From: a virus
Direction: 5' to 3' (one strand)
IMG/VR virus record: IMGVR_UViG_3300017963_000568
Span: 1-32,211 of that record
Length of the DNA stretch: 32,211 bases
The notes beneath the pieces were generated by a model. It did no database searches. It was not told the origin of the DNA and saw only the letters and a list, made by a program, of their open reading frames with translations. The translations under genes were made by a program, and so were the position numbers. Shown one piece after another: positions 1-12,016 of the stretch (the stretch's first letter is position 1; each line of letters starts with the position of its first letter).

Positions 1-1
1 C

Positions 2-175
2 TGCGATCATATTAATGAAGAAGTGACAAAAGTCGATGCGCTGGTGGATACGGTCCGTGTAGCGATGAGTCGGCTTGAAGCCAATACAAAAATTACCTGG
101 ACGCTGTTACTTCTCGTCATCGGTGGCCTCATCAGCATTGCCTTTCAGATGTGGCAAGCAGGGGGGACCCCATGA
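2..175 (+). CDS. C-terminal part of a coiled-coil plus membrane-anchor protein (holin/XhlA-like)
   Basis: The gene is cut by the left edge; 57 codons remain in frame from base 2. The visible part is a charged, heptad-like stretch (EEVTKVDALVDTVRVAMSRL) followed by one hydrophobic segment (TWTLLLLVIGGLISIAFQMW) and a short tail. A short coiled coil followed by a C-terminal membrane helix is the layout of XhlA-type phage haemolysin/holin accessory proteins, which act with the endolysin at the inner membrane. The stop codon overlaps the next start (ATGA), so translation is probably coupled. The family call rests on layout only, because the N-terminus is missing; a tail-associated membrane protein is also possible. 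Confidence 0.55.
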   Translation, partial: CDHINEEVTKVDALVDTVRVAMSRLEANTKITWTLLLLVIGGLISIAFQMWQAGGTP

Positions 176-306
176 TTCTCTATCAGCGCATTAGTGCTCT
201 TGTGTTGGCAAGTCTGCTTCTCTGGATTATCTTGATGATGGTCCTGCCGTTTGTCACGGATGGCTTTTTTACACAATTACCAGTCCAGTCCCGGTCCAGC
301 GCGTGA
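172..306 (+). CDS. Small membrane-anchor ORF (44 aa), probable N-terminal half of a frameshifted gene
   Basis: It starts with ATG inside the stop of the upstream gene. Residues 8-28 form a single strong transmembrane or signal-anchor helix (ALVLASLLLWIILMMVLPFV), followed by about 15 residues ending SRSSA. A run of six T at 265-270 lies in the codons for Phe-Phe just after the helix. Moving -1 there joins it in frame to the following 96-residue reading frame with no stop between. The joined product would be a membrane-anchored periplasmic protein of about 140 residues, which looks more natural than either half alone. Either ribosomal frameshifting or a base miscount in the T run could explain this. 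On its own it could be a holin-sized peptide. Confidence 0.55.
   Translation: MILYQRISALVLASLLLWIILMMVLPFVTDGFFTQLPVQSRSSA
265..271 (+). other. Possible -1 frameshift point (T-run)
   Basis: In the upstream frame the codons are GGC TTT TTT ACA. A -1 slip on the T-run gives Phe-Phe-Tyr-Thr and enters the downstream frame, which is open from here to 593. The P-site re-pairing would be TTT to CTT, so this is not an ideal X-XXY-YYZ heptamer; an indel in the homopolymer is an equal alternative. Confidence 0.35.
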
Positions 307-593
307 CAGGAAACAAGCTTCTGTTGTCGTTGCATCGTCAGGCCCGGTTCCCAATGAATGGAACCTGTTCAAGAGAATTGGCCTGTGAATATACCGTGGA
401 ACTGGGAGAGTATCCGTGCCCCATTGAACCAGGGGAGCAGACCATCACATTCTTATATGTCCTCCCTCATGGCATGACGGGGGATTGTGTGCTTCGCGGG
501 CATGTTCGCTATCGTCCTTTTGGATGGATAGGCCCAGAGTTGACCACGCCCTGGCAGAGTGAAGTGTTTACGATACCAAATTCTGAAGGTTAG
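303..593 (+). CDS. Putative periplasmic beta-domain protein (C-terminal half of the split gene)
   Basis: As a separate gene it would start with GTG, overlapping the previous stop, and give 96 residues without a signal peptide or membrane helix. The sequence alternates hydrophobic and polar residues (EYTVELGEY, QTITFLYVLPHG, CVLRGHVRYRPFG) and has four cysteines, which suits a small disulphide-bearing beta-sandwich outside the cytoplasm. That location requires the anchor encoded just upstream, supporting one frameshifted gene. I recognise no family. Its position beside a holin-like gene suggests a lysis or superinfection role, but this is inference. The gene ends at 593 and the cassette-like region begins right after it. 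Confidence 0.5.
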   Translation: MTGNKLLLSLHRQARFPMNGTCSRELACEYTVELGEYPCPIEPGEQTITFLYVLPHGMTGDCVLRGHVRYRPFGWIGPELTTPWQSEVFTIPNSEG

Positions 594-610
594 TGAACGA
601 TAACTAAGTC

Positions 611-695
611 GCTTCATAACGCTCCATTTCAGCCGTCAAACACACGCCCTGATGACGGGCAACGCCTTTGATGCTGGCACGAACCGTTATGCGAT
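611..695 (-). repeat. attC-like recombination site 1 (leftmost)
   Basis: An imperfect palindrome with perfect 7-bp outer arms, CATAACG (615-621) and CGTTATG (685-691), and inner arms CAGCCGTCAAA (630-640) and TTTGATGCTGG (667-677) that pair with one wobble and one bulged base. GCCC/GGGC closes the tip. Read on the - strand it ends GCGTTATGAAGC; the same 12-mer ends the site at 1766-1877. Outer cores ending in GTTA, paired inner arms and a bulged base are the marks of integron attC sites. Confidence 0.5.
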
Positions 696-696
696 A

Positions 697-840
697 GGAT
701 TATACTGAAACTACAGCGCGCGGGTTTGGTCGCGCTGCAAATGTTTGTTAGAATGCCCCTGTGATAGATTCCGCTATCACTTTAACGGGCTGGCCGCCCG
801 TATCACTGCTCACCAGAGTTAGCATTCTGATTATTGTCAG
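697..840. repeat. Gene-free stretch with stacked hairpins
   Basis: No convincing gene lies here. It contains CAGCGCG/CGCGCTG (714-720 with 731-737), GTGATAG/CTATCAC, ACGGGC/GCCCGT, and an outer pair AGAATGC/GCATTCT that encloses the last two. On the - strand the element starts with TTCTAACAAAC, again resembling an attC left core. It may be one or two degenerate attC-like sites or a small structured RNA. Confidence 0.35.
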
Positions 841-852
841 ATGCCATAATCA

Positions 853-915
853 TCAGGAATCGAACCTGACTCCCTCCACACCAGTCCTCGATAAACGAGC
901 AGGAATCGAACCTGC
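853..915 (-). other. Two tRNA T-arm-like sequences, tRNA fragments
   Basis: On the - strand, TCAGGTTCGATTCCTGA (853-869) and GCAGGTTCGATTCCTGC (899-915) are perfect T-stem/T-loop sequences 46 bases apart, too close for two full tRNAs. I could not find matching acceptor or D-arm sequence for either, although a weak anticodon-arm-like hairpin precedes the second. They look like tRNA 3' fragments, possibly left by integration, rather than working tRNAs. Confidence 0.4.
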
Positions 916-966
916 ACTCCCTGCGCCTGCATTTTTACAGGCATTATAACTACAAATTCAAGTTCC

Positions 967-1206
967 TTAGCTAAATTTGATATTTTTAATTTCAAACCCA
1001 TCTTCTCGAAAAATTACTTCTTCTTTTGGATGCTCGATTCTTCTAAGATTCCACATCTCAGAAGCTAATTGGATGCTAATGTCATTCGGGCCAGTAGCAC
1101 CACAATTTTCACAACAGACGGCGTATTCTATCTCGCCGTCATCGTTCCCGAAATCAACTACTTCAACTTTTTTATTTAAACAAAAAGGGCATGGTTTCAA
1201 TTTCAC
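967..1206 (-). CDS. Lar-like zinc-ribbon protein
   Basis: This 79-residue protein begins with GTG preceded by CAGGAG at a good distance. It opens with KPCPFC and carries a second CENCGATGPN knuckle, then a WNLRR segment. CPFC, CxxCGA-GP and a following W-N-R are the pattern of the Lar/restriction-alleviation family. Lar proteins (Rac prophage, lambda Ral) relieve type I restriction, in part by raising host modification. Four cysteines should bind one zinc. It is a separate cassette on the - strand, flanked by attC-like sites at 1216-1345 and near 700-840, and lies two genes downstream of two DNA methyltransferases, fitting a modification/anti-restriction theme. The fold is clear; the anti-restriction role is inferred. 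Confidence 0.75.
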   Translation of the reverse strand: MKLKPCPFCLNKKVEVVDFGNDDGEIEYAVCCENCGATGPNDISIQLASEMWNLRRIEHPKEEVIFREDGFEIKNIKFS

Positions 1207-1215
1207 GATGCTTCT

Positions 1216-1345
1216 CCTGTAAGCCTGCTAACGCCTGCCATCAGATGGCGCAGCACAGAGTCAACCTGATAGCGGGTGATGAGTTAATAATTATCACTTA
1301 ATTTTTGCGGGCATCGGCTGCGCTCCTTTGCATGGCTTTGTTATG
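1216..1345 (-). repeat. attC-like recombination site 2
   Basis: It lies between the zinc-ribbon gene and the 1341-1748 gene. On the - strand it runs from TTCATAACAAAGCC to GGCAGGCGTTAGC. Inner arms GCGCAGC (1248-1254) and GCTGCGC (1317-1323) pair perfectly, and GCCAT/ATGGC pair outside them with unpaired bases between. The TAAC start and GTTAGC end match the outer cores of attC sites. Confidence 0.55.
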
Positions 1346-1748
1346 AAGTGACCACAGTATCTATCTTCTTGAAGTCACGGACAATTATAGTTTCTTCATG
1401 TGCTGAACATTCCAAAAAATATGCTTCATCCATCCAGGGGATACTATCGGGATCTCCATGTTTTCCACCGCCATACCAATATGTCCAGCCTACCCAAGTT
1501 CCATCACGTAATTGAGTTGCCACCGATTTTGATTCATAATTCCGTGACCAATCACAGCCAATATTCGTTTCTTCTCCACTCTCTCGAAAATTTGAAACAT
1601 AATCCCAGTGTATATTTTCTTTGACGAGTAATTCTTCATAGAATTTGTCAATATTCTTTTCTGTAATTGGACAGTTAGGTAGTGGGGCATCCCCATTTTC
1701 AAAAGCATCTTGCAAAATATCATATTTAATCGCTTGTTCTGGTGTCAT
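1341..1748 (-). CDS. Hypothetical cassette protein
   Basis: This 135-residue acidic protein starts at the ATG of MTPEQAIKYD, preceded by GAGGAAGG; an upstream ATG would run into the flanking palindrome. It has no signal peptide or membrane helix. The C-terminal half is rich in Trp, Tyr and Gly (TWVGWTYWYGGGKHGDPDSI), followed by a Cys-containing strand and EETIIVRDFKKID, suggesting a compact alpha/beta domain. I do not recognise the family. Its position as one ORF between two attC-like sites, facing the same way as its neighbours, is what is expected of an integron cassette gene, many of which are unknown. Confidence 0.6.
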   Translation of the reverse strand: MTPEQAIKYDILQDAFENGDAPLPNCPITEKNIDKFYEELLVKENIHWDYVSNFRESGEETNIGCDWSRNYESKSVATQLRDGTWVGWTYWYGGGKHGDPDSIPWMDEAYFLECSAHEETIIVRDFKKIDTVVTS

Positions 1749-1765
1749 AATCCTTCCTCGTCTAA

Positions 1766-1877
1766 GCTTCATAACGCCCGCCATAACCCGCCCAAAAGAG
1801 CGCGGAGACGAGCCTGTTATTAAACCGCCAATTTTGCGCCGCGCTCTTTGGGGTCGGCGTTCATGGCATTGTTAGCA
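1766..1877 (-). repeat. attC-like recombination site 3 (best stem)
   Basis: Inner arms CCCAAAAGAGCGCGG (1791-1805) and CCGCGCTCTTTGGGG (1839-1853) pair over 14 bp with one extrahelical A. Outer ends on the - strand are GCTAACAATGCC and GGCGTTATGAAGC. A long inner stem with a single bulged base and weakly paired cores is the structure the integron integrase recognises. The 3' end of the methyltransferase gene runs into this site. Confidence 0.65.
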
Positions 1878-2551
1878 AGCGACCCCACGCCAAACAGAGA
1901 CACTTGCCGTAATCGTTCGACAGCAACATCACAATATTCTTGTTCGACATCAATACCAATTGCCTGAAAGCCAAGATTCTGAGCAGCAACTAACGTTGAC
2001 CCGCTCCCCATATACGGATCACATATCACGTCTCTATGCTCAAGACGCAATTTCTGAATACACCATTCCATCAATGCCACTGGTTTCTGTGTAGGATGAA
2101 ACCGATCTTTCTCTGGCCTGACAAAACCCTGCTGCGTCAATGAAAAAATATAGAGTCCACGTCCGCCCGTCTTCGGGCCGATTCGATTATACCAGTTTTT
2201 CATCCAGGCGACTTCTCCATCTGCAAGAAATGCGCTCCCATTCTTAAACCGTTTATCCCATATAAGCAGCGTACCGGGAGGAACTTTCTGGGCAAAGTAG
2301 GAATATCCAAACAGTAGCACTTTCTTATATTTCAAAAGATGCTGAGGGTCAAATAAATCAGAATCACCGATAACAGGCTTATATACACGGTTCCTCTGTA
2401 CGCCACCCTTAAAGCGTGTATAATCAGTATCAAGTTGAGTCCCATACGGCGGGTCACTCACAATGACTGTAATATTCTGCAATTCTGGCAAAATAGCTTT
2501 ACAGTCTCCGTGATAAACTGTGATTCCGTTATGTTGATAATATGGACTCAT
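1820..2551 (-). CDS. DNA methyltransferase, beta-class order (DPPY)
   Basis: This 243-residue protein has catalytic motif IV DPPYG at residues 33-37, HPTQKPVAL at 152-160 and the AdoMet motif DPYMGSGST at 178-186. Catalytic motif before AdoMet motif is the beta-class order of N6-adenine/N4-cytosine methyltransferases, for example CcrM-like enzymes. It would transfer a methyl group from AdoMet to an exocyclic amino group; DPPY does not decide adenine or cytosine. No partner restriction enzyme is seen, so it is an orphan enzyme likely protecting phage DNA or changing host methylation. Its start overlaps the stop of the next methyltransferase (ATGA). The last 15 or so residues are read from the attC-like site, so the native C-terminus may have been altered by cassette joining. 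Confidence 0.88.
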   Translation of the reverse strand: MSPYYQHNGITVYHGDCKAILPELQNITVIVSDPPYGTQLDTDYTRFKGGVQRNRVYKPVIGDSDLFDPQHLLKYKKVLLFGYSYFAQKVPPGTLLIWDKRFKNGSAFLADGEVAWMKNWYNRIGPKTGGRGLYIFSLTQQGFVRPEKDRFHPTQKPVALMEWCIQKLRLEHRDVICDPYMGSGSTLVAAQNLGFQAIGIDVEQEYCDVAVERLRQVSLFGVGSLANNAMNADPKERGAKLAV

Positions 2552-3072
2552 AAGCCGCCTAACTTGTTATTATAAGGCTGGGTAGCAAAGGAAAACCCCA
2601 TAGAACCAGAATAACCAGTCCTAAAGTGAAAGGCCGTCACCGGTCTGTGTATTTCTGGGAATCCTACTGTCCTACCATCCCCATAAAAACGAGCATGAAC
2701 AATACCGCCTTTATCGTGAATCATTTTAACTGTCGAAAATACGTTAAAAGGCTTATCTGCTGGAAGAAGAAAAACAATATCTTTTGCAATATCGAAAGAG
2801 TGATCCATAAATTCAAAGAATTGCTTATACGGGGGATTCCCGATAATCCAATCAACTTGTTTCCCGTATGCGTAAAAGTCTTTCCCCTCTCTGATTTCAC
2901 ACCATTCAGCATCAGGTGGCAGATACTTCATAAAAACACCGGTTCCTTTTGACGGTTCAAGGATTGTGCCTGACGGTTTAAAAAAAGACACCATATCAGA
3001 CGCGATCCAATGTGGAGTATAAACCACATCTTGAGGGTCAAAAGCTATTTTTATGAGTTGCAACTGCACCAT
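2548..3072 (-). CDS. DNA N6-adenine methyltransferase (NPPY)
   Basis: The protein has 174 residues, starting at MVQLQLIKIA; reading further upstream would translate the palindrome at 3081-3215. It shows TPHWIASDMV, AdoMet motif LEPSKGTG (38-45), an acidic strand end (WCEIREGKDF), then NPPY at 79-82. This AdoMet-then-catalytic order with NPPY is typical of N6-adenine methyltransferases of gamma type. It is short and has no obvious target-recognition domain, so it may use a partner, perhaps the adjacent enzyme. No strong ribosome binding site precedes the start. The final codons contain GTTAGGC, an integron-type core, with no palindrome between the two methyltransferases, suggesting an old cassette fusion. 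Confidence 0.85.
   Translation of the reverse strand: MVQLQLIKIAFDPQDVVYTPHWIASDMVSFFKPSGTILEPSKGTGVFMKYLPPDAEWCEIREGKDFYAYGKQVDWIIGNPPYKQFFEFMDHSFDIAKDIVFLLPADKPFNVFSTVKMIHDKGGIVHARFYGDGRTVGFPEIHRPVTAFHFRTGYSGSMGFSFATQPYNNKLGGL
2557..2563 (-). other. Lone GTTAGGC core site inside methyltransferase overlap
   Basis: On the - strand the end of the first methyltransferase reads AACAAGTTAGGCGGCTTATGA. GTTAGGC matches the integron consensus GTTRRRY exactly and lies 6 bases before the next start codon. There is no hairpin here, so if real it is a remnant of a junction where the rest of attC was lost. Confidence 0.3.
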
Positions 3073-3080
3073 AGTGTGAA

Positions 3081-3215
3081 GCCTTATAACGCTATGCGTT
3101 ACAAGGCTTGCCATAGCGGGCTGTACCTTGTGAACCACACAAAAACTTGACCGGAAGTACGCTGCTGAAACTGGCGAGCGCGGGCAAGCTCTTGTGCACG
3201 CAATTGTTATGAGGC
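3081..3215 (-). repeat. attC-like recombination site 4
   Basis: On the - strand it runs from GCCTCATAACAATTGCG to GCGTTATAAGGC. Inner arms ACAAGGCTTGCC (3101-3112) and GGCAAGCTCTTGT (3183-3195) pair over 12 bp with one extrahelical T. The ends resemble known attC ends (TAACAATTCG start; the GTTATAA right core found in Vibrio cholerae repeats). It separates the gene-free structured block from the methyltransferase genes. Confidence 0.6.
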
Positions 3216-3675
3216 GGCCCCGCACCGCCTCTGCTTAGTCATATATTGCGAGTCACCCTCCCGGATGTGTGCTATGACTCCGTGGACATCGGGAATGTCA
3301 AGTTGATCAAGGGGCCACATCATGCCCTCTCTCGTCTATCCCTGCGGTTATTGGTGGTAATTCTCGCTCCGTAGTTCCCTGCTATCACCGGTCAATAGGT
3401 CGGGACGTATGCTAATAATTACCACCAAACGGGCCTCGCTGCGGGAATTCCGTTTAAAATTGCCCTGGTTACTCTCGTCCAGGGCCGCGCTGTATTATTT
3501 TTATGGCGGCAGGTTAGCCTGTCTTTCCAAGTGTCAACCCGTCTTTCTTTCAGGGTTCTCGCTCTTTCTAAGCTCAGAGAGCCTGCGGCATATGTACAGG
3601 CTATCCATCTTGCTGGCCGCTCGCTCAGGACGTCCCCGGCATTACCCGCTCGGTACTTCGTAGAAGCCTCATAAC
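3206..3675 (-). ncRNA. Candidate large structured noncoding RNA cassette
   Basis: No credible protein gene fits here. The block is bounded by 10-bp inverted repeats GTTATGAGGC (3206-3215) and GCCTCATAAC (3666-3675). Inside are many perfect stems: GGTGGTAATT/AATTACCACC (3353-3362, 3417-3426) enclosing a 54-base loop region, GCCCTGG/CCAGGGC (3462-3468, 3479-3485), AAACGG/CCGTTT (3427-3432, 3450-3455), AACCC/GGGTT (3536-3540, 3553-3557) and GAGGCGG/CCGCCTC (3211-3217, 3225-3231), which could end the transcript. Purine-rich loops such as ACGAGAGTAA on the - strand favour that strand. Candidates are a large phage RNA of the GOLLD/ROOL kind or a HEARO/omega-RNA; the block starts just after TTATGA, and HEARO RNAs are reported to sit after ATGA or GTGA. 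No HNH gene is present. Confidence 0.45.
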
Positions 3676-3712
3676 TTATTATTAGCAGGACGTTTTGCCC
3701 CGCCTCATAATA

Positions 3713-4105
3713 TTACTGTACGGGCCGTCGGAAAAAGAAGAAAAAGTACGTGGAGAATCCCCCATCCTCCGGGAGGTTCAGCACAGTGATAATTTCCCAG
3801 CCCTGCTTGCCATAGCCATTCATCATGGTCTGCATCCCACCAGGCCCTAACAACGCGAAATTTGCCACGTGCAGCGAATATTCCCAGGAGGGATATTTTA
3901 TAGCATCCGCCTCCAGATCATCGCGCTCCGTCGGAACGTGACAAAACACGCCTTCAAAAAGGGAAGCCGGCCCCGATTGGAGAACATCCTCGGACAGTGT
4001 GCGACTCATTTTCGCATACTCTGGTTGTGGAAATAGCTCTTGAAGCTCTTTATCTGCACAGCCAACACACACACAACAACACATCAAACAAATCAGTCGC
4101 TTCAT
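3713..4105 (-). CDS. Small lipoprotein with DUF4177-like domain
   Basis: This 130-residue protein begins MKRLICLMCCCVCVGC, a short signal peptide ending in a lipobox with the modified cysteine at residue 16. GGAGG precedes the ATG. The C-terminal part has WEYSLHVANF, then GYGKQGWEIITVLNLP and a YFFFFFRRP end. That W-E-Y, G-x-x-G-W-E and K/R-R-P pattern resembles the small DUF4177 domain. It is expected at a membrane facing the periplasm. It is the last gene of the left-facing group 4899 to 3713 and may be a phage-encoded surface or superinfection factor, but its function is unknown. Confidence 0.65.
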   Translation of the reverse strand: MKRLICLMCCCVCVGCADKELQELFPQPEYAKMSRTLSEDVLQSGPASLFEGVFCHVPTERDDLEADAIKYPSWEYSLHVANFALLGPGGMQTMMNGYGKQGWEIITVLNLPEDGGFSTYFFFFFRRPVQ

Positions 4106-4137
4106 TTGCCTCCTCCTTTTTTTTGTTGCAGAAACTG

Positions 4138-4347
4138 TTATCCGTTCTGAACCCTTCGAAGGTCTTTGTCTTGTTCCCGCTTCCTCAGGCGTTCAAAGAA
4201 CGAAATCTCCTTCACGATATACTTCGGGACATCTCGTTTTCCGGTTTCCCACATGTTCCAGACTGGTTGCCTGACACCCAACAGCACGGACACTTCTGCT
4301 TGTGTCAGGTGCCACCGTGCTCGAAATTGTTTCAGTTGTTCATTCAT
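4138..4347 (-). CDS. Small HTH protein (XRE-like)
   Basis: This is 69 residues with one helix-turn-helix, FRARWHLTQAEVSVLLGV then RQPVWNMWETGKRDVP, roughly residues 8-42. T-Q-A-E at the first helix and W-E-x-G-K-R at the end are standard XRE features. It ends in a charged helix that may dimerise. No good ribosome binding site directly precedes the ATG, so expression may depend on the gene just upstream (4378-4899), whose stop is 30 bases away. Next to an ADP-ribosyltransferase gene it could regulate or neutralise that gene, or be a general phage regulator. Confidence 0.8.
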   Translation of the reverse strand: MNEQLKQFRARWHLTQAEVSVLLGVRQPVWNMWETGKRDVPKYIVKEISFFERLRKREQDKDLRRVQNG

Positions 4348-4377
4348 AGAAAGAAAAGGGACTTGCCCCCTCCTCTC

Positions 4378-4899
4378 TTATATTTCTTCCAATTCAATAT
4401 TTCGACCATCCTTTGATACGGAAAGAACCTTGAATTGACTATTACAAGTAAACAGGACTTCTTTTTCATCGTCATCTGCATCAGGAAAAAGATGTATATA
4501 TGTCTTTCCTTGTTTGCTCTGGATTTTCAGGATGACTTCAAACTCATCCATGTCTGAAGTCTCCTGTGTCGGGGCCACATTATGATTTTCAACAAACTCA
4601 AATGACGTGGAGGCAGAGACAAACTCATCATATCGGACAATACAGCCGACCTTATGCCAAGCAGCAAAATTTTCTACCCAACTCTCATCGTACAGGCGGA
4701 CTTTCCGATATACCACACCCTGAAAGACTGGAAGATTCTTCAGAGCAGCAGAGAGTCGTTCTTTTCTGGCGATCTCATCTGCCGACAACTGAATGCCATT
4801 GCGAATCTTCATGTTCATGGCGCCGGTTACGCCATACATTATGTATGATCCAATGATTTCCTGATCACTCATAATTTTGATGTCATCTACTGCATTCAT
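4378..4899 (-). CDS. ADP-ribosyltransferase, R-S-E class
   Basis: This 173-residue protein carries the full R-S-E triad: Arg65 in VVYRKV, the S-T-S segment SASTS at residues 95-99, and E145-K146-E147 in DEKEVLF, an ExE motif as in arginine-specific toxins. VILKIQSKQGKTYIHL before ExE and FKVLSV after it match the core strands of VIP2/C3-like exoenzyme folds. It would move ADP-ribose from NAD onto a protein, probably arginine. There is no signal peptide, so it acts in the host cytoplasm or is packaged, as with T4 Alt. It has its own sigma-70-like promoter (4944-4971) and an upstream GGAGGAG. A small HTH gene follows. Host-takeover enzyme and toxin of a toxin-antitoxin pair are both possible. 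Confidence 0.82.
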   Translation of the reverse strand: MNAVDDIKIMSDQEIIGSYIMYGVTGAMNMKIRNGIQLSADEIARKERLSAALKNLPVFQGVVYRKVRLYDESWVENFAAWHKVGCIVRYDEFVSASTSFEFVENHNVAPTQETSDMDEFEVILKIQSKQGKTYIHLFPDADDDEKEVLFTCNSQFKVLSVSKDGRNIELEEI

Positions 4900-4943
4900 T
4901 GTGTGCTCCTCCGTGTTGTTAATGTTTCTTAATTACTATATCT

Positions 4944-4971
4944 AATATATAACATATTTATAATTTGTCAA
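4944..4971 (-). promoter_or_regulatory. Sigma-70-like promoter for the ADP-ribosyltransferase gene
   Basis: On the - strand TTGACA (4966-4971) and TATATT (4944-4949) are 16 bases apart in a very A+T-rich stretch. The predicted start is near 4937, giving a leader of about 38 bases with GGAGGAG before the ATG at 4899. Confidence 0.7.
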
Positions 4972-5092
4972 GAAAAAAATGCACTTTTTTTATAAAAATG
5001 TTATTTTTTTGATTTTAATCAATACCTTACACGGAAGAAGAAGATTCTTGTCCTCTACAGACTATCAGCACCACCGATGTAGCAGATCCCCC

Positions 5093-5380
5093 TCATTCCC
5101 AAAAGTGATCATCTACGAATTGGGAATATTGCAGGTCTCCCTCCTGTGAATACGTTTCCAGCCAGGCCCGCACCCCGCGCCACTGGGCCAGTTGGTCCAC
5201 GGTCATCAAGTCCTCGGCTTCGGTGATCAAGCGGCGCGCCTCTTCGCCATAGATGTGCTCTCGGCGCAGAACTTGCTCAACTTGTGTCAGATGCGCTTTG
5301 AGATCGGAAATCTCTGCACGCATCCGATCTAGCCGGGCTTGCCAAGTCCTATCTCGTCGAAATTCTGTAAGATCACTCAT
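5093..5380 (-). CDS. Hypothetical helical (coiled-coil) protein
   Basis: It has 95 residues if it starts at MSDLTEFRRD; an ATG four codons upstream directly abuts the GAGGAGG sequence. Residues 10-55 are a long charged helix (RLDRMRAEISDLKAHLTQVE) followed by a second helical part (EEARRLITEAEDLMTVDQLA). No cysteines, signal or membrane segments are seen. It is 17 bases downstream of the peptidase-like gene and probably shares its transcript. Residues 47 onward resemble no domain I know. A small structural or adaptor protein is likely, with function unknown. Confidence 0.6.
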   Translation of the reverse strand: MSDLTEFRRDRTWQARLDRMRAEISDLKAHLTQVEQVLRREHIYGEEARRLITEAEDLMTVDQLAQWRGVRAWLETYSQEGDLQYSQFVDDHFWE

Positions 5381-5397
5381 CTTCGTCCACATCCTCC

Positions 5398-5934
5398 TCA
5401 AAACAAGACATCCGTGAATGAGGAGCAATCCTCAATCACGCCATAATCGGACTGCGGGGACATTGCCAATTGGGGCTCTTTGCCACAGATTGCATAGCCA
5501 TCCCGCGTTTTTTTCACGATCAGAATCATCGCATGACGTGACGGAATTTCTGGAGAGCGCTTGACGCCTGTCGCGCCAAAGCCTACAGCCATTTTCGCAT
5601 TCCCCACGTCTTTCTGCCAATGCAAGACATGGCAAGTGTGCAGAAACGCTTTAAAATCCCAGGCAAATTCCATACAGACGTACACATCCGGCTGATAGAG
5701 ATCGTGTGGCTGTTTGCCCGTTACGGCCAGGTTAAAGGCATGGAATTTGGCAAGCGCTTCATGCATCCAGCCATCATCTGGCAGGATGTAGCGTACGGAA
5801 AAACAGCGGGGCACGATGATGCCGTGTTGATGCCAAAAATTCGTTTGAATGATGACAGGCGACACATATTGATAGGCGCCGCGCACCCCCCCGACGGGCG
5901 GGGGGAGATCTGGAATATAGTCATGCATGTTCAT
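5398..5934 (-). CDS. Putative papain-fold cysteine peptidase / transglutaminase-like protein
   Basis: The chosen start, MNMHDYIPDL, follows GAGGGG at nine bases and gives 178 residues; an ATG eight codons earlier overlaps the upstream gene. The pattern YVCMEFAWDFKAFLH, then SRHAMILIV, then GYAICGKEPQ places a cysteine at a helix start, a histidine in a strand and a Glu/Gln after the next strand. This is the Cys-His-acid order of transglutaminase/NlpC-type folds, which often appear in phages as lectin-like or peptidase proteins. There is no signal peptide. It belongs to the leftward group 6249 to 5093 and may act on cell wall or host protein. The assignment rests on motif order only. Confidence 0.5.
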   Translation of the reverse strand: MNMHDYIPDLPPPVGGVRGAYQYVSPVIIQTNFWHQHGIIVPRCFSVRYILPDDGWMHEALAKFHAFNLAVTGKQPHDLYQPDVYVCMEFAWDFKAFLHTCHVLHWQKDVGNAKMAVGFGATGVKRSPEIPSRHAMILIVKKTRDGYAICGKEPQLAMSPQSDYGVIEDCSSFTDVLF

Positions 5935-5947
5935 TGGATGGGTCCCC

Positions 5948-6055
5948 TCAGAAGGCATACGGCGTACAGCCAGTCAGCCACAGAATGAGCAGGAATAGAC
6001 AAACGCTGATTCCCACGGTCCACATTCCATACATGATCACGTCTTTTCCTGACAT
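5948..6055 (-). CDS. Tiny lipopeptide (35 aa)
   Basis: It starts ATG with AGGAGG six to seven bases upstream. The peptide has a short polar start, one hydrophobic helix (GISVCLFLLILWLTGC) and a lipobox LTGC, leaving a mature tail of only six residues (CTPYAF). Small lipopeptides of this type include entericidins and minimal outer-membrane spanin subunits. No inner-membrane partner of the usual spanin form is adjacent, so a spanin role is uncertain. It lies between the genes at 6037-6249 and 5398-5934 with tight overlaps, consistent with co-transcription. Confidence 0.6.
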   Translation of the reverse strand: MSGKDVIMYGMWTVGISVCLFLLILWLTGCTPYAF

Positions 6056-6249
6056 ATGGGATCCTCCTGTTCTTGTGCTCCAAGAGAGGGGAGCACATTA
6101 GCAAATGTTGTCAACAACCATTCTCGTGTATGCGTCCGATCCCCAGAGCGACAGCATGTTCGCTGAAACTGATCAAGAGTTTTCGCGAATTGGTCATCCG
6201 TGATGAAATAAAAGTCACGAGCATTGTGACTATAGGCAAAATAATACAT
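6037..6249 (-). CDS. Hypothetical protein
   Basis: This 70-residue ORF starts MYYFAYSHNARDFYFITDDQ. Aromatic residues dominate the N-terminus and two adjacent cysteines lie mid-way. The C-terminal region (GAQEQEDPICQEKT) is read from the stretch carrying the next gene's ribosome binding site, and the ORF overlaps that gene by 19 bases. No clear ribosome binding site precedes its ATG. It is plausible as the first gene after the left-facing promoter near 6521, separated from it by a structured leader, but it could be a chance ORF. No family is recognised. Confidence 0.4.
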   Translation of the reverse strand: MYYFAYSHNARDFYFITDDQFAKTLDQFQRTCCRSGDRTHTREWLLTTFANVLPSLGAQEQEDPICQEKT

Positions 6250-6520
6250 AGCAAAACTTCATAATAAGATGGAGGGAACCGACATCCCGCATGAGGTTTG
6301 ATATCGCAGCATGCCGACCCACTCCGGTGTGTAAGACCTCAGGTTGTATGTGCAACAGCTGCACGCCCGCCGCTGAGTAGAATGCTGAAACCACCGGAGG
6401 CATACAGACTCCTGGACCGGAATCAGGCCCCATCGAGTCCGCCCCCCGGACAGCCTCGATGGCTCTGGCCTGTGTGCACGATCCCGATCCAGTACATCTA
6501 CCATAATAGAGTCTGTGAAT
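6250..6520 (-). promoter_or_regulatory. Gene-free leader with a strong nested hairpin
   Basis: No supported gene lies in this 270-base stretch; open frames exist but lack ribosome binding sites. Its main feature is a nested hairpin at 6424-6472: CAGGCC (6424-6429) with GGCCTG (6467-6472), CATCGAG (6431-6437) with CTCGATG (6455-6461), and TCC with GGA at the tip. If the left-facing promoter at 6521-6526 is used, this forms in the 5' leader of the 6249 to 5093 gene group and may control its expression. Confidence 0.45.
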
Positions 6521-6542
6521 TTGTCAAGATATTTCTTGACAA
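6521..6542. promoter_or_regulatory. Palindromic operator in divergent control region
   Basis: TTGTCAAG (6521-6528) and CTTGACAA (6535-6542) form a perfect 8-bp inverted repeat around a 6-base spacer. Each arm also contains a TTGACA -35 box, one facing each way, so a dimeric repressor bound here would block both directions. The RHH protein encoded at 6597 is an obvious candidate repressor. Confidence 0.6.
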
Positions 6543-6563
6543 AAAAAGAAAAAACTTTATTAT
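6536..6563 (+). promoter_or_regulatory. Sigma-70-like promoter for the replication genes
   Basis: TTGACA (6536-6541) and TATTAT (6558-6563) are 16 bases apart. Transcription should start near 6570, upstream of AAGGAGG (6581-6587) and the ATG at 6597. The -35 box lies within the palindrome. Confidence 0.7.
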
Positions 6564-6596
6564 AGTATTAATTCCAATGAAAGGAGGCTGAGAATT

Positions 6597-6770
6597 ATGG
6601 ATGGGAAAGGATATCGCTATAATCATCGTCCTATTTATGTTTCAAAACATCACCATAAATTGCTAAAAGACCTTGCGAATGATGAGGACATTACGTTAAA
6701 AAAATACGTTGAAAAAATGATTGTCGAATTTACGGAGACTAAAGAGAAACAATTAACTCCTTGTCATTAA
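6597..6770 (+). CDS. Ribbon-helix-helix-like DNA-binding protein
   Basis: It has 57 residues with AAGGAGG nine bases before the ATG. The segment RPIYVSKHHHKLLKDLAND followed by ITLKKYVEKMIVEF has the strand-helix-helix layout of Arc/MetJ repressors: a short strand (PIYVS), helix 1, a turn with a small polar residue and helix 2. RHH proteins bind palindromes as dimers, and a perfect palindrome lies 55 bases upstream, overlapping this gene's promoter, so autoregulation is likely. It directly precedes the primase-helicase, so it may set replication gene dosage. The first 12 residues are basic and flexible. Confidence 0.65.
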   Translation: MDGKGYRYNHRPIYVSKHHHKLLKDLANDEDITLKKYVEKMIVEFTETKEKQLTPCH

Positions 6771-6779
6771 AAGGTCAAT

Positions 6780-9092
6780 ATGGAAAGTCCACTAAAAATA
6801 GCAACAGCAGAAGATTGTGACCGATTAGAACGCTATACTCCGGCAGAATTGCAAGATTGCCCTCAATGGGGGTTATGGCGGCTCGAACGAGATAAAGACG
6901 GCAATTTGACAAAAATTCCTTATCGTGTACAACCTGGCTTTAAACGCGCCCGGTCAACAAAAAAAGAAGATTGGACATCATTTCAACAAGCACTCTCTAT
7001 TTTAGAGACACGCTATACACAGTTCTCAGGATTGGCTTTTTGTCTCTTTGCCGAAGATCCATACACCTTTATTGATTTTGATCACTGCCTCAATGGAGGC
7101 AAACAAGTTCTCCCTGAATTTGAACAATGGATGCAGCGATTTAATTCATATATGGAACGTTCACAGGGTGGGGAGGGCTTTCATATTTTAGGACATGGGA
7201 AAAAGCCGGGGAACCGCTGCAAAAATGACAAAAAACATACAGAAATCTATGATAAAGACCGATTTTTAGCCTTTACAGCCGACGTCTGTCAAAATTTTGA
7301 CACGATTCACAATATTCAACAGCCCTTAAATGAGTTATATGCCTGGGCGTTTAACGATGAATCAACATCCCCACAGAAAATCCAGATACCGTCTGAACCA
7401 ACACTTTCTGATCAAGACATTCTTGCGCTTTGTCAACAAGCAGCGAATGCCTCGAAATTTCAGGCACTCTGGACAGGTGATACGTCTGACTATGCTGGAG
7501 ATGATTCAAGTGCCGATCTTGCCCTGTGTTCATTACTAGCGTTTTATACACAAATTCCTGATCAGCTCGACCGCCTGTTTCGTCAGAGCGCCTTATACCG
7601 ACAGAAATGGGATGAAAAACGAGGGCAACAAACCTATGGAGAGCGTACAATTCAAACCGCATTGAATTCTGTCAGAGAGACATATACTCCTCCCATGGCA
7701 AAGAGCGGACAAGAAAGTCAATATCTCCCTGAGTGGTGTTTTTGGTCTATATCAGAATTTCGAGGAACCTTGCTCTATCATATTGATGTTGTCAAGTTTT
7801 TAGCCTTTCTTGCCACGGAGTTTACATTTCGCGTATTTATGAAACGGAATGTCCCTGTCATCGTTGAAGAAACTTATGATGGCTTTAAGTATTGCATTCA
7901 TCGAGGAACACAAGTGCTGTGTGTCAAGAATGCAACAATTGATTTTCTTATTCATGAAGGCTTTCCAGAGATTGCAAGTGAACTGTTGCTCAAAACACGC
8001 CTTTTTTCCCTTGATGTGTTAGAAAATCTTCCAATTATTGACAAAGAGAAAGTTCGACTAAGTATTTTCACACATGGACAAACAAGAATTTCTTTGCAAG
8101 ATGAATATATTGATAAAGAATCTATTCTATACTATCAGGAGAGTGAAGAGAGTCGCAAGATCTATCTTCTTAATCGTCATGACATGGGGGTGATTGTCTC
8201 TCGACAAGGAATGGGCAAGTCTACGGCGATTGAACTCCTTATCAGTCAGGCACTTTACCCATGCGAGAAAAACAGTCCGTTTACCTTTCAGATGTCTTCT
8301 GATGAAATTATCCTCCATTTTGATACCGAACGAACCCATGACGATAATCTTCGAATGCTGAAACGAATTGCAAAAAGAACACATGTCATTAAACATGGTT
8401 TGTTGAATGCCCATGGAGACTTTCAACGACTCATTGTAGAAATGTGTGCCGATGACGTAGATGACATCGGATTTTGGCTCCTTGAAAAAATTGAATCTAT
8501 TCAACAACCGATTGGACTCATTGTAATTGATACACTTCTTGACACGGTTCCTGATATGAACAATCAAGAACTCGCCGTTAAGTTTTATCAAGACCTGCGG
8601 CACGCAGCGAAGGTTCGGAATTGCGCTATCCTAAGCACCATTCATGCCTCTCCTGATAGTAAAGATACTGACGGAAAAGGCATGGGGCATATTGGAAGTT
8701 TGTTCATGCGAAAAGCCTCAACATTCCTTCAAGTGAGAAATGCAGAAGAAAACTATATGATTAAATTATTGTCTTCTGATTTCCGAAATGCTAAAATTCG
8801 GAATTCTCCTGATCACGGTCTCCTCGCAGCGTTTACTTGGGGAGAAGATGGCCTCGCCCATTTTATTGACTATGCTCCGCCGGAAAAACTCAAGATGACA
8901 AAGCAAGAGGAAGCAAAACGGAACTATCGAGAATTATTACAACATGGAGGCAAAACAAAAGACATCCTCTTGAAAGAATATTGTGAGAAGTTTGGGGTCA
9001 CAAAGAAAACAGCCTACTCACATTTTGAGATGGTTAGGAAGCAAGGATGGTTGACGCAAGTTCAGGGCAGAATTCATTGGAAACTCTTGTGA
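6780..9092 (+). CDS. Primase-polymerase/helicase fusion (replication protein)
   Basis: This is 770 residues. The N-terminal third is an archaeo-eukaryotic PrimPol domain: FIDFDHC near residue 97 supplies the metal-binding D-x-D, SQGGEGFHILG near 127 the nucleotide-binding G-x-G-x-H, and TEIYDKDRFLAFT near 157 the third conserved strand. The C-terminal half is a RecA-type ATPase with Walker A SRQGMGKST near 474-482, Walker B LIVIDTLLD near 580, and STIHASPDSK after it. A winged-helix-like end (TKDILLKEYCEKFGVTKKTAYSHFEMVRKQGW) probably binds DNA. Such fusions start and unwind replication forks in phages and plasmids. The iteron region immediately downstream is a likely target. There is no good ribosome binding site before the ATG; translation may be coupled to the RHH gene, whose stop is nine bases away. 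Confidence 0.9.
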   Translation: MESPLKIATAEDCDRLERYTPAELQDCPQWGLWRLERDKDGNLTKIPYRVQPGFKRARSTKKEDWTSFQQALSILETRYTQFSGLAFCLFAEDPYTFIDFDHCLNGGKQVLPEFEQWMQRFNSYMERSQGGEGFHILGHGKKPGNRCKNDKKHTEIYDKDRFLAFTADVCQNFDTIHNIQQPLNELYAWAFNDESTSPQKIQIPSEPTLSDQDILALCQQAANASKFQALWTGDTSDYAGDDSSADLALCSLLAFYTQIPDQLDRLFRQSALYRQKWDEKRGQQTYGERTIQTALNSVRETYTPPMAKSGQESQYLPEWCFWSISEFRGTLLYHIDVVKFLAFLATEFTFRVFMKRNVPVIVEETYDGFKYCIHRGTQVLCVKNATIDFLIHEGFPEIASELLLKTRLFSLDVLENLPIIDKEKVRLSIFTHGQTRISLQDEYIDKESILYYQESEESRKIYLLNRHDMGVIVSRQGMGKSTAIELLISQALYPCEKNSPFTFQMSSDEIILHFDTERTHDDNLRMLKRIAKRTHVIKHGLLNAHGDFQRLIVEMCADDVDDIGFWLLEKIESIQQPIGLIVIDTLLDTVPDMNNQELAVKFYQDLRHAAKVRNCAILSTIHASPDSKDTDGKGMGHIGSLFMRKASTFLQVRNAEENYMIKLLSSDFRNAKIRNSPDHGLLAAFTWGEDGLAHFIDYAPPEKLKMTKQEEAKRNYRELLQHGGKTKDILLKEYCEKFGVTKKTAYSHFEMVRKQGWLTQVQGRIHWKLL

Positions 9093-10753: not shown

Positions 10754-10976
10754 CATGCCCGAGTGGTGGGAGGAACACTGGCAAGATATGCCAGAATTCC
10801 AACAAGACGATCAGACGGCATATAAACAAGTGATTGTCAATTTTCAGACGCTTGAGGATATGGAACAGTTTGCAGCACTTCTTGGGCAACGCCTTACGTT
10901 GCACACGAAAAGCATTTGGTATCCAGAAGTCAAACCGGCGGATCTCTTGCGCTTCCAATATCAGGAGGAATCATGA
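10722..10976 (+). CDS. Hypothetical phage protein with SIWYP motif
   Basis: It has 84 residues from MKEQRQATLF, preceded by AGAGG; an earlier ATG at 10707 lacks a ribosome binding site. It has an acidic, Trp-rich front (MPEWWEEHWQDMPEFQQDD), then KQVIVNFQTLEDMEQFAALL and TKSIWYPEV. The VNF-x-x-x-E-D-M-x-x-F followed by KSIWYP pattern recurs in phage proteins of unknown function. I do not know its activity. It overlaps the start of the glycosyltransferase gene, suggesting translational coupling and a shared pathway. Confidence 0.6.
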   Translation: MKEQRQATLFDMPEWWEEHWQDMPEFQQDDQTAYKQVIVNFQTLEDMEQFAALLGQRLTLHTKSIWYPEVKPADLLRFQYQEES

Positions 10977-12016
10977 ATCCTCAGTTCCCTGTCTACATTA
11001 TTTCCAAGGGCCGCTGGGAACCACGATTGACAAGCAAGGCGCTTGACAAAATGGACGTGCCCTATCACATTGTCATTGAACCCCAGGAATATGCTCAGTA
11101 TTCCGCAGTTATTGATCCACAAAAGATTTTGGTGCTCCCTTTTTCAAATTTAGGGCAAGGTTCAATCCCTGCTCGAAACTGGGTGTGGGCACACAGTATG
11201 CAACAAGGGGCTAGTTGGCATTGGATTCTCGACGACAATCTCAGAGATTTTTACCGATTGAACAAGAATTTGAAAGTCAGAGGGACCACAGGCGTGTATT
11301 TTAAGGTGGCAGAGGATTTTGTGTTGCGTTATGAAAATGTCGCTATTGCCGGGTTTCAATACGAACTGTTGACTCCCAGAAAGTCAAAAGTACCTCCATT
11401 TTATCTGAATACCCGGATTTATAGCTGTATTCTGATTCGGAATGACATCCCGTTTCGATGGCGTGGGCGTTACAATGAAGATACAGACATCTCTTTGCGA
11501 GTCTTAAAAGCGGGATGGTGTACCATCTTATTTAATGCCTTCCTCTGTGATAAAATGCCCACGATGACCATGAAAGGCGGCAATACGGACCAACTTTATC
11601 GGCAAGATGATAAATTCGATGGTCGGCTGGAAATGGCGAAATCCTTACAGCAGCAGCATCCCGATGTCGTCGATATTACGTGGAAGTGGGGACGCTGGCA
11701 GCATCAGGTCAACTATAATCCGTTTAAGCGCAACAAGCTCAAGTTTCGAGAGGACTATGTCAAGAAGCAAGGCATTAATAATTATGGCATGGTGCTCGTT
11801 GATGTCAAACAAGAGCAAGAAGAAGATCAACAGCTTGAATTTGAGAACATGCCTATTTACAGCCGGGCCTGGTGGATGGCGCAGGGGGTGCCGCCCTTGC
11901 AGATTCGCCGGGCACCAACACAGGCCCAGGTCTTTGACTCATTCGAGCCGAGTCTGGGGGATGGCGCAGAAGCGGCTGTCCTCATAGCTTCGTTGCCCGA
12001 TCGACAAACAGAATGA
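10973..12016 (+). CDS. TET-associated-type glycosyltransferase (TAGT-like)
   Basis: This 347-residue protein starts at MNPQFPVYIISKGRW, after AGGAGG. It has the GT-A-like opening PVYIISKGRWEPRLTSKAL, a metal-binding-type WILDDNLRDF near residue 83-92, and RWRGRYNEDTDISLRVLKAG near 163-182. These features, the length and the phage setting fit the TAGT/GREB1-related glycosyltransferases, which add sugars to hydroxymethyl bases in phage DNA. No TET/JBP oxygenase or hydroxymethylpyrimidine synthase is visible in the window, so its substrate is open: a modified base made elsewhere in the genome, or another acceptor. It lies in a coupled run from 10722 to 12790. The C-terminal 70 residues are low-complexity and divergent. 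Confidence 0.75.
   Translation: MNPQFPVYIISKGRWEPRLTSKALDKMDVPYHIVIEPQEYAQYSAVIDPQKILVLPFSNLGQGSIPARNWVWAHSMQQGASWHWILDDNLRDFYRLNKNLKVRGTTGVYFKVAEDFVLRYENVAIAGFQYELLTPRKSKVPPFYLNTRIYSCILIRNDIPFRWRGRYNEDTDISLRVLKAGWCTILFNAFLCDKMPTMTMKGGNTDQLYRQDDKFDGRLEMAKSLQQQHPDVVDITWKWGRWQHQVNYNPFKRNKLKFREDYVKKQGINNYGMVLVDVKQEQEEDQQLEFENMPIYSRAWWMAQGVPPLQIRRAPTQAQVFDSFEPSLGDGAEAAVLIASLPDRQTE

Follow-up and report, generated by a model that had tools for sequence, protein, structure and literature searches.

The virus record IMGVR_UViG_3300017963_000568 of IMG/VR very probably harbors an integrase-less cassette array of the integron type (CALIN) within the genome of a tailed phage. The whole record of 32,211 bases, hereafter called the window, was analyzed; it is classed as linear and therefore may be a fragment, so that an integrase gene may lie in another part of the genome. 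Its assignment to the tailed phages is based on genes for the large terminase subunit, the portal, the head maturation protease and the major head protein. The term CALIN was chosen because four attC sites were detected but no integrase within the 32-kb fragment. Searches with TIGR02249 gave no match in the record at E-values up to 10 and an IntI profile matched none of its six reading frames. A complete integron comprises intI and attI; no intI was found in the fragment and no attI was identified. An earlier note on this DNA had proposed an integron-like cassette array inside a phage genome and had seen no integrase gene, and both statements agree with the four attC sites, the tailed-phage genes and the integrase searches.

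For the detection of attC sites, a profile comprising paired R''/R' and L''/L' arms, the extrahelical base and the spacers was built and trained with attC sites at 80 bacterial loci with an integron-integrase gene and in one integron of a Vibrio phage. Of the 210 hits with scores of at least 8 at the bacterial loci, 204 had the strand that the geometry of integrons predicts. Within the window, the profile revealed four sites on the minus strand, attC1 to attC4, with scores of 30.2, 29.7, 29.3 and 16.1, respectively, compared to a best score of 9.9 in 2.58 Mb of the dinucleotide-shuffled window. When window positions 1-4000 were shuffled 1,500 times, one maximum reached 16.2, the next was 12.9 and none came near 29. 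The sites attC1 to attC3 are far beyond chance, while attC4 stands at about one in 1,500 shuffles. The earlier note had named a covariance-model search of the minus strand as a check, and a model built here from 43 bacterial attCs returned exactly the same four sites (E-values 2e-6 to 1e-3) and no further attC in the window at E-values up to 10. Thus, where a CALIN has at least two model-recognized attC sites, the window has four by the profile and by the covariance model. The attCs of phage TJE1 scored in the same range with both models. On the other hand, the profile and the covariance model both failed to find the P12002L attCs that Qi et al. described, so neither of the two detects every real attC. 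For phage PH101, the first 50 kb were searched.

All four sites possess the R''-L''-L'-R' layout, their spacers measure 4 and 5, and an extrahelical G occupies the same position in each. Both pairs of arms (R''/R' and L''/L') with an extrahelical base in L'', by which an attC is recognized, are present in each of them. On the minus strand, attC1 (614-753) consists of R'' TTCTAAC (747-753) and R' GTTATGA (614-620) and gave 23.3 bits with the covariance model (E 0.0012). The corresponding boxes are TCATAAC and GTTAGCA in attC2 (1226-1346; 26.9 bits, E 2e-4), TGCTAAC and GTTATGA in attC3 (1769-1877; 34.6 bits, E 2e-6), and TCATAAC and GTTATAA in attC4 (3084-3212; 25.2 bits, E 4e-4). The palindromes with attC anatomy on the minus strand, noticed from the letters, were recovered in this way, including the paired arms with bulged bases, the TAAC- and GTTA-type ends and an end (GCGTTATGAAGC) that is exactly shared by two sites. 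The extent of the first site had to be revised from 611-695 to 614-753, since both models place its R'' box at 747-753 and not at a left end near 695. It is most improbable that the sites are simply terminators, or palindromes that arose by chance, in the spaces between phage genes. Folding energy, by itself the weaker kind of evidence, would allow this explanation for attC2, which did not fold better than its own shuffles, while a z value of -3.6 was obtained for the DNA folding of attC3. Terminator-like patterns, however, occurred only in slight excess (6 versus 3.5 in shuffles), none of them corresponds to a whole site, and the two attC models singled out the same four sites.

The array can be divided into four cassettes, whose genes and attC sites (4/4) all have the same orientation on the minus strand, as is required of a CALIN. 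Cassette A (3090-3674), defined by the crossover points, contains only small ORFs and no evident gene. Cassette B (1775-3089), bounded by the R' cores of attC4 and attC3, carries two overlapping DNA methyltransferase genes. The product of the first (2548-3072, 174 aa) has an NPPY motif, matches PHROG 799 (E 4e-23 for the longer reading frame) and is 44% identical to proteins of Klebsiella phages; that of the second (1820-2551, 243 aa) has a DPPY motif and matches Pfam N6_N4_Mtase (E 5e-21) and PHROG 67. In cassette C (1232-1774), orf147 (1341-1748, 135 aa) encodes a phage protein of unknown function belonging to PHROG 25120 (E 1e-37). Its likely start is position 1748, as homologs align from about there, and relatives of this family were found in six phage records and at 70 viral loci. 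Cassette D (620-1231), lying between the R' cores of attC2 and attC1, combines a structured RNA with a gene for a restriction alleviation protein of the Lar family (967-1206, 79 aa, GTG start), which scored above the curated cut-offs of Pfam and NCBIfam TIGR03655. Judged by these matches, the cargo is likely to be largely of the anti-restriction type, and the methyltransferases and the Lar-like protein reported earlier are confirmed by Pfam, PHROG and NCBIfam. The minus-strand orientation of all genes also held, but not the assumption of one gene per cassette, as B contains two genes and A, the most upstream one, no evident gene. In each coding cassette, the first gene starts 12-21 bp past the R' core. 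Gene starts of compact integron cassettes lie similarly close behind the R' box.

At the 5' end of cassette A, a lone R'-type core (GTTATGAGGC, 3666-3675, minus strand) was detected, whose 10 bases can all pair with the R'' end of attC4. From its sequence, this core is the probable 5' boundary of the array and the start of cassette A. Since the crossover falls in G|TT, the 5' end of a cassette is the expected pairing partner of its R'' box. Counted over the seven outer bases of 200 bacterial cassettes, this partner indeed gave 5.94 matches, versus 3.19 in place. The R'' of cassette A revealed 7/7 matches with its own 5' end versus 6/7 in place, and that of cassette C 6/7 versus 3/7. Cassette D showed a slight preference for its own end (5/7 versus 4/7), while cassette B paired slightly better in place (5/7 versus 4/7), which counts against the array reading. 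The strand contains 508 GTT trinucleotides, about 16 per kb, and the chance of an exact seven-base match behind a GTT in the upstream kilobase is estimated at about 16/16,384, or 1 in 1,000. At the other side, the flank past attC1 (TTATGAAGC) is identical to the sequence with which cassette C begins and may, by this resemblance, be the remnant of a lost cassette. The left boundary of the array would fit either an attG insertion (Loot et al. 2024, as cited in PMC12901181) or the transfer of a block. Cassette A had no match among plasmids or phages, nor had its longest plus-strand ORF. It contains a perfect 12-bp inverted repeat (TTGGTGGTAATT / AATTACCACCAA) within window positions 3351-3428, and its folding as RNA is little better than that of shuffled sequence (z -1.4).

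How the array arose may be explained in two ways. It is known that integron integrases recombine the bottom strands of attC sites and that five of six attCs from virulent phages were recombined with IntI1 (PMC9892861). An integron integrase supplied by the host could act in trans on the phage array, its attC sites being folded and recombined as single strands. The cassettes would have entered at G|TT and might still be lost or exchanged there, and the phage would retain them for the relief from host restriction that Lar and the methyltransferases would provide. In this account, both the mobility of the cassettes and their role in counter-defence are inferred. Alternatively, the array could be a fossil, a block of a host integron that entered by illegitimate or homologous recombination and whose attCs are now inert and serve as spacers or weak terminators. 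This entry route was raised by Qi et al. (2023) and is a possible, if somewhat doubtful, explanation here. It fits the absence of an integrase in cis, the lower score of attC4 and the flank TTATGAAGC, whose resemblance to the start of a lost cassette would be expected of a block that was cut out. However, none of the four sites has lost a box, an arm or its extrahelical base, and cassette A starts precisely at a core matching its own R''. Recombination by a host integrase is the preferred explanation. Among the relatives searched, no second phage with a rearranged, different or empty array was found. Only one phage relative was detected; it shares the structural genes but not the array region with the window and has no attC, and scans of viral contigs yielded no relatives by either methyltransferase.

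Between the Lar gene and attC1, cassette D contains a conserved structured RNA of 171 nt (757-927, minus strand), which shows covariation in eight phages and ends 3 nt short of the R'' box of attC1. Matches were found in large phages of Klebsiella, Salmonella, Pseudomonas and Shewanella and in one IMG/VR contig (L326:5623-5793). The other homologs are located at L284:1497-1668, L285:1497-1670, L327:1172-1345, L328:1173-1345, L329:1111-1281, L330:1090-1267, L331:1492-1665 and L332:1492-1665. In jumbo phages, the element mostly occupies unannotated stretches in or near tRNA clusters, and its shape includes hairpins resembling the T-arm of tRNAs. In the eight-sequence alignment, 92% of the cells of the 37-pair structure are paired and 22 of the 37 pairs are altered on both sides. 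The covariation score of this alignment is 0.594 compared to 0.19 for shuffles, and sliding the structure gave no more than 0.11, though the latter control favors the structure because it came from that alignment. Two Pseudomonas putida phages outside the RNA model gave full-length matches with 155-157 bits; in both, the RNA lies upstream of a gene annotated as encoding a tellurite resistance protein. Neither ARAGORN nor Rfam reported a tRNA or tmRNA at 757-927, and this reading was dropped. Rfam 15 holds no family for this stretch, the only hit being a 17-nt tmRNA T-arm at E 1.2, and its matches in the homologous regions were of tRNA type or due to chance. The RNA model found nothing in 369 genomes of a gammaproteobacterial class in a search run without a positive control, and a narrow literature search revealed no prior description of the RNA. 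The element presumably moves together with cassette D. It may be proposed, tentatively and with considerable doubt, that integron cassettes also carry non-coding phage equipment, with a phage-specific RNA as cargo beside Lar. If true, host integrons would be a route by which counter-defence modules are exchanged between unrelated phages. As the RNA is common to several large cultured phages, its role is directly testable.

Cassette arrays have been reported from phages before, though they are rare, and this kind of array is among those reported, because CALINs with methyltransferases have been published for phages (PMC9892861). They were described for the virulent phages TJE1, P12002L and PH101 (Qi et al. 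2023, PMC9892861), and the attCs of TJE1 recombined with IntI1 in the published assay (PMC9892861). What the window has in common with these phages is an attC cluster without integrase and DNA methyltransferases in the cargo. What separates it from them are four attCs, Lar, a gene-less cassette, the structured RNA and an unrelated phage, and recombination of its attCs is a prediction from their sequence. The complete integrons of the temperate phages Vibrio Va_90-11-286_p16 and Shewanella M16-3 likewise include an attC array in a phage genome, but they possess an integrase gene, unlike the window fragment. The few cassette arrays known from phages thereby gain a well-supported case with four attCs, and its cargo, likely to be largely anti-restriction, makes it more pressing to ask whether host integrons supply phages with counter-defence genes.

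There are hints that the array originated outside the gammaproteobacteria. The combination of a spacer of 5 and an extrahelical G, present at all four window sites, was found in 4.5% of attCs of a mainly proteobacterial set, compared to 50% in Chloroflexota (14/28) and 24% in Desulfobacterota (6/25), samples that are small and contain sites not independent within one array. The likeness to integron arrays of these two groups lies in the attC spacer and the extrahelical base. The phage terminase was not found in the 400 Chloroflexota genomes searched, again without a positive control, and the source of the array is therefore only a hint.

Two other putatively viral contigs pair attCs with cargo families of the window. 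IMGVR_UViG_3300033553_000822 (L269) apparently bears, as far as its sequence tells, a complete integron (3464-6709) with an integron integrase (5714-6709; 410 bits versus a curated cut-off of 265), several attCs and a Lar gene. Three attCs were found by the profile and four by the covariance model, two of them in common. As a second putatively viral contig combining Lar with attCs, here along with an integron integrase, it counts for the array reading, while the orientation of its Lar gene against the attCs counts against it. On IMGVR_UViG_3300020045_001881 (L282, 3272-9660), attCs lie on both sides of a phage integrase gene, near which there is also a relative of orf147, and the contig further has a DNA methyltransferase; the attCs beyond the phage integrase may be host sequence.

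Outside the array, some further genes of the phage were noticed. The protein encoded at 6780-9092 (plus strand) contains the helix-bundle domain found in the NrS-1 phage primase-polymerase. The product of 4378-4899 (minus strand) resembles the ADP-ribosyltransferase family PF03496 only weakly, with a score that stays under the curated cut-off. ADP-ribosyltransferases are known among some phage proteins. A TET-associated glycosyltransferase (Pfam TAGT) is encoded at 10916-12016 (plus strand), and this match suggests that the phage may hypermodify its DNA, which would be a further anti-restriction trait.
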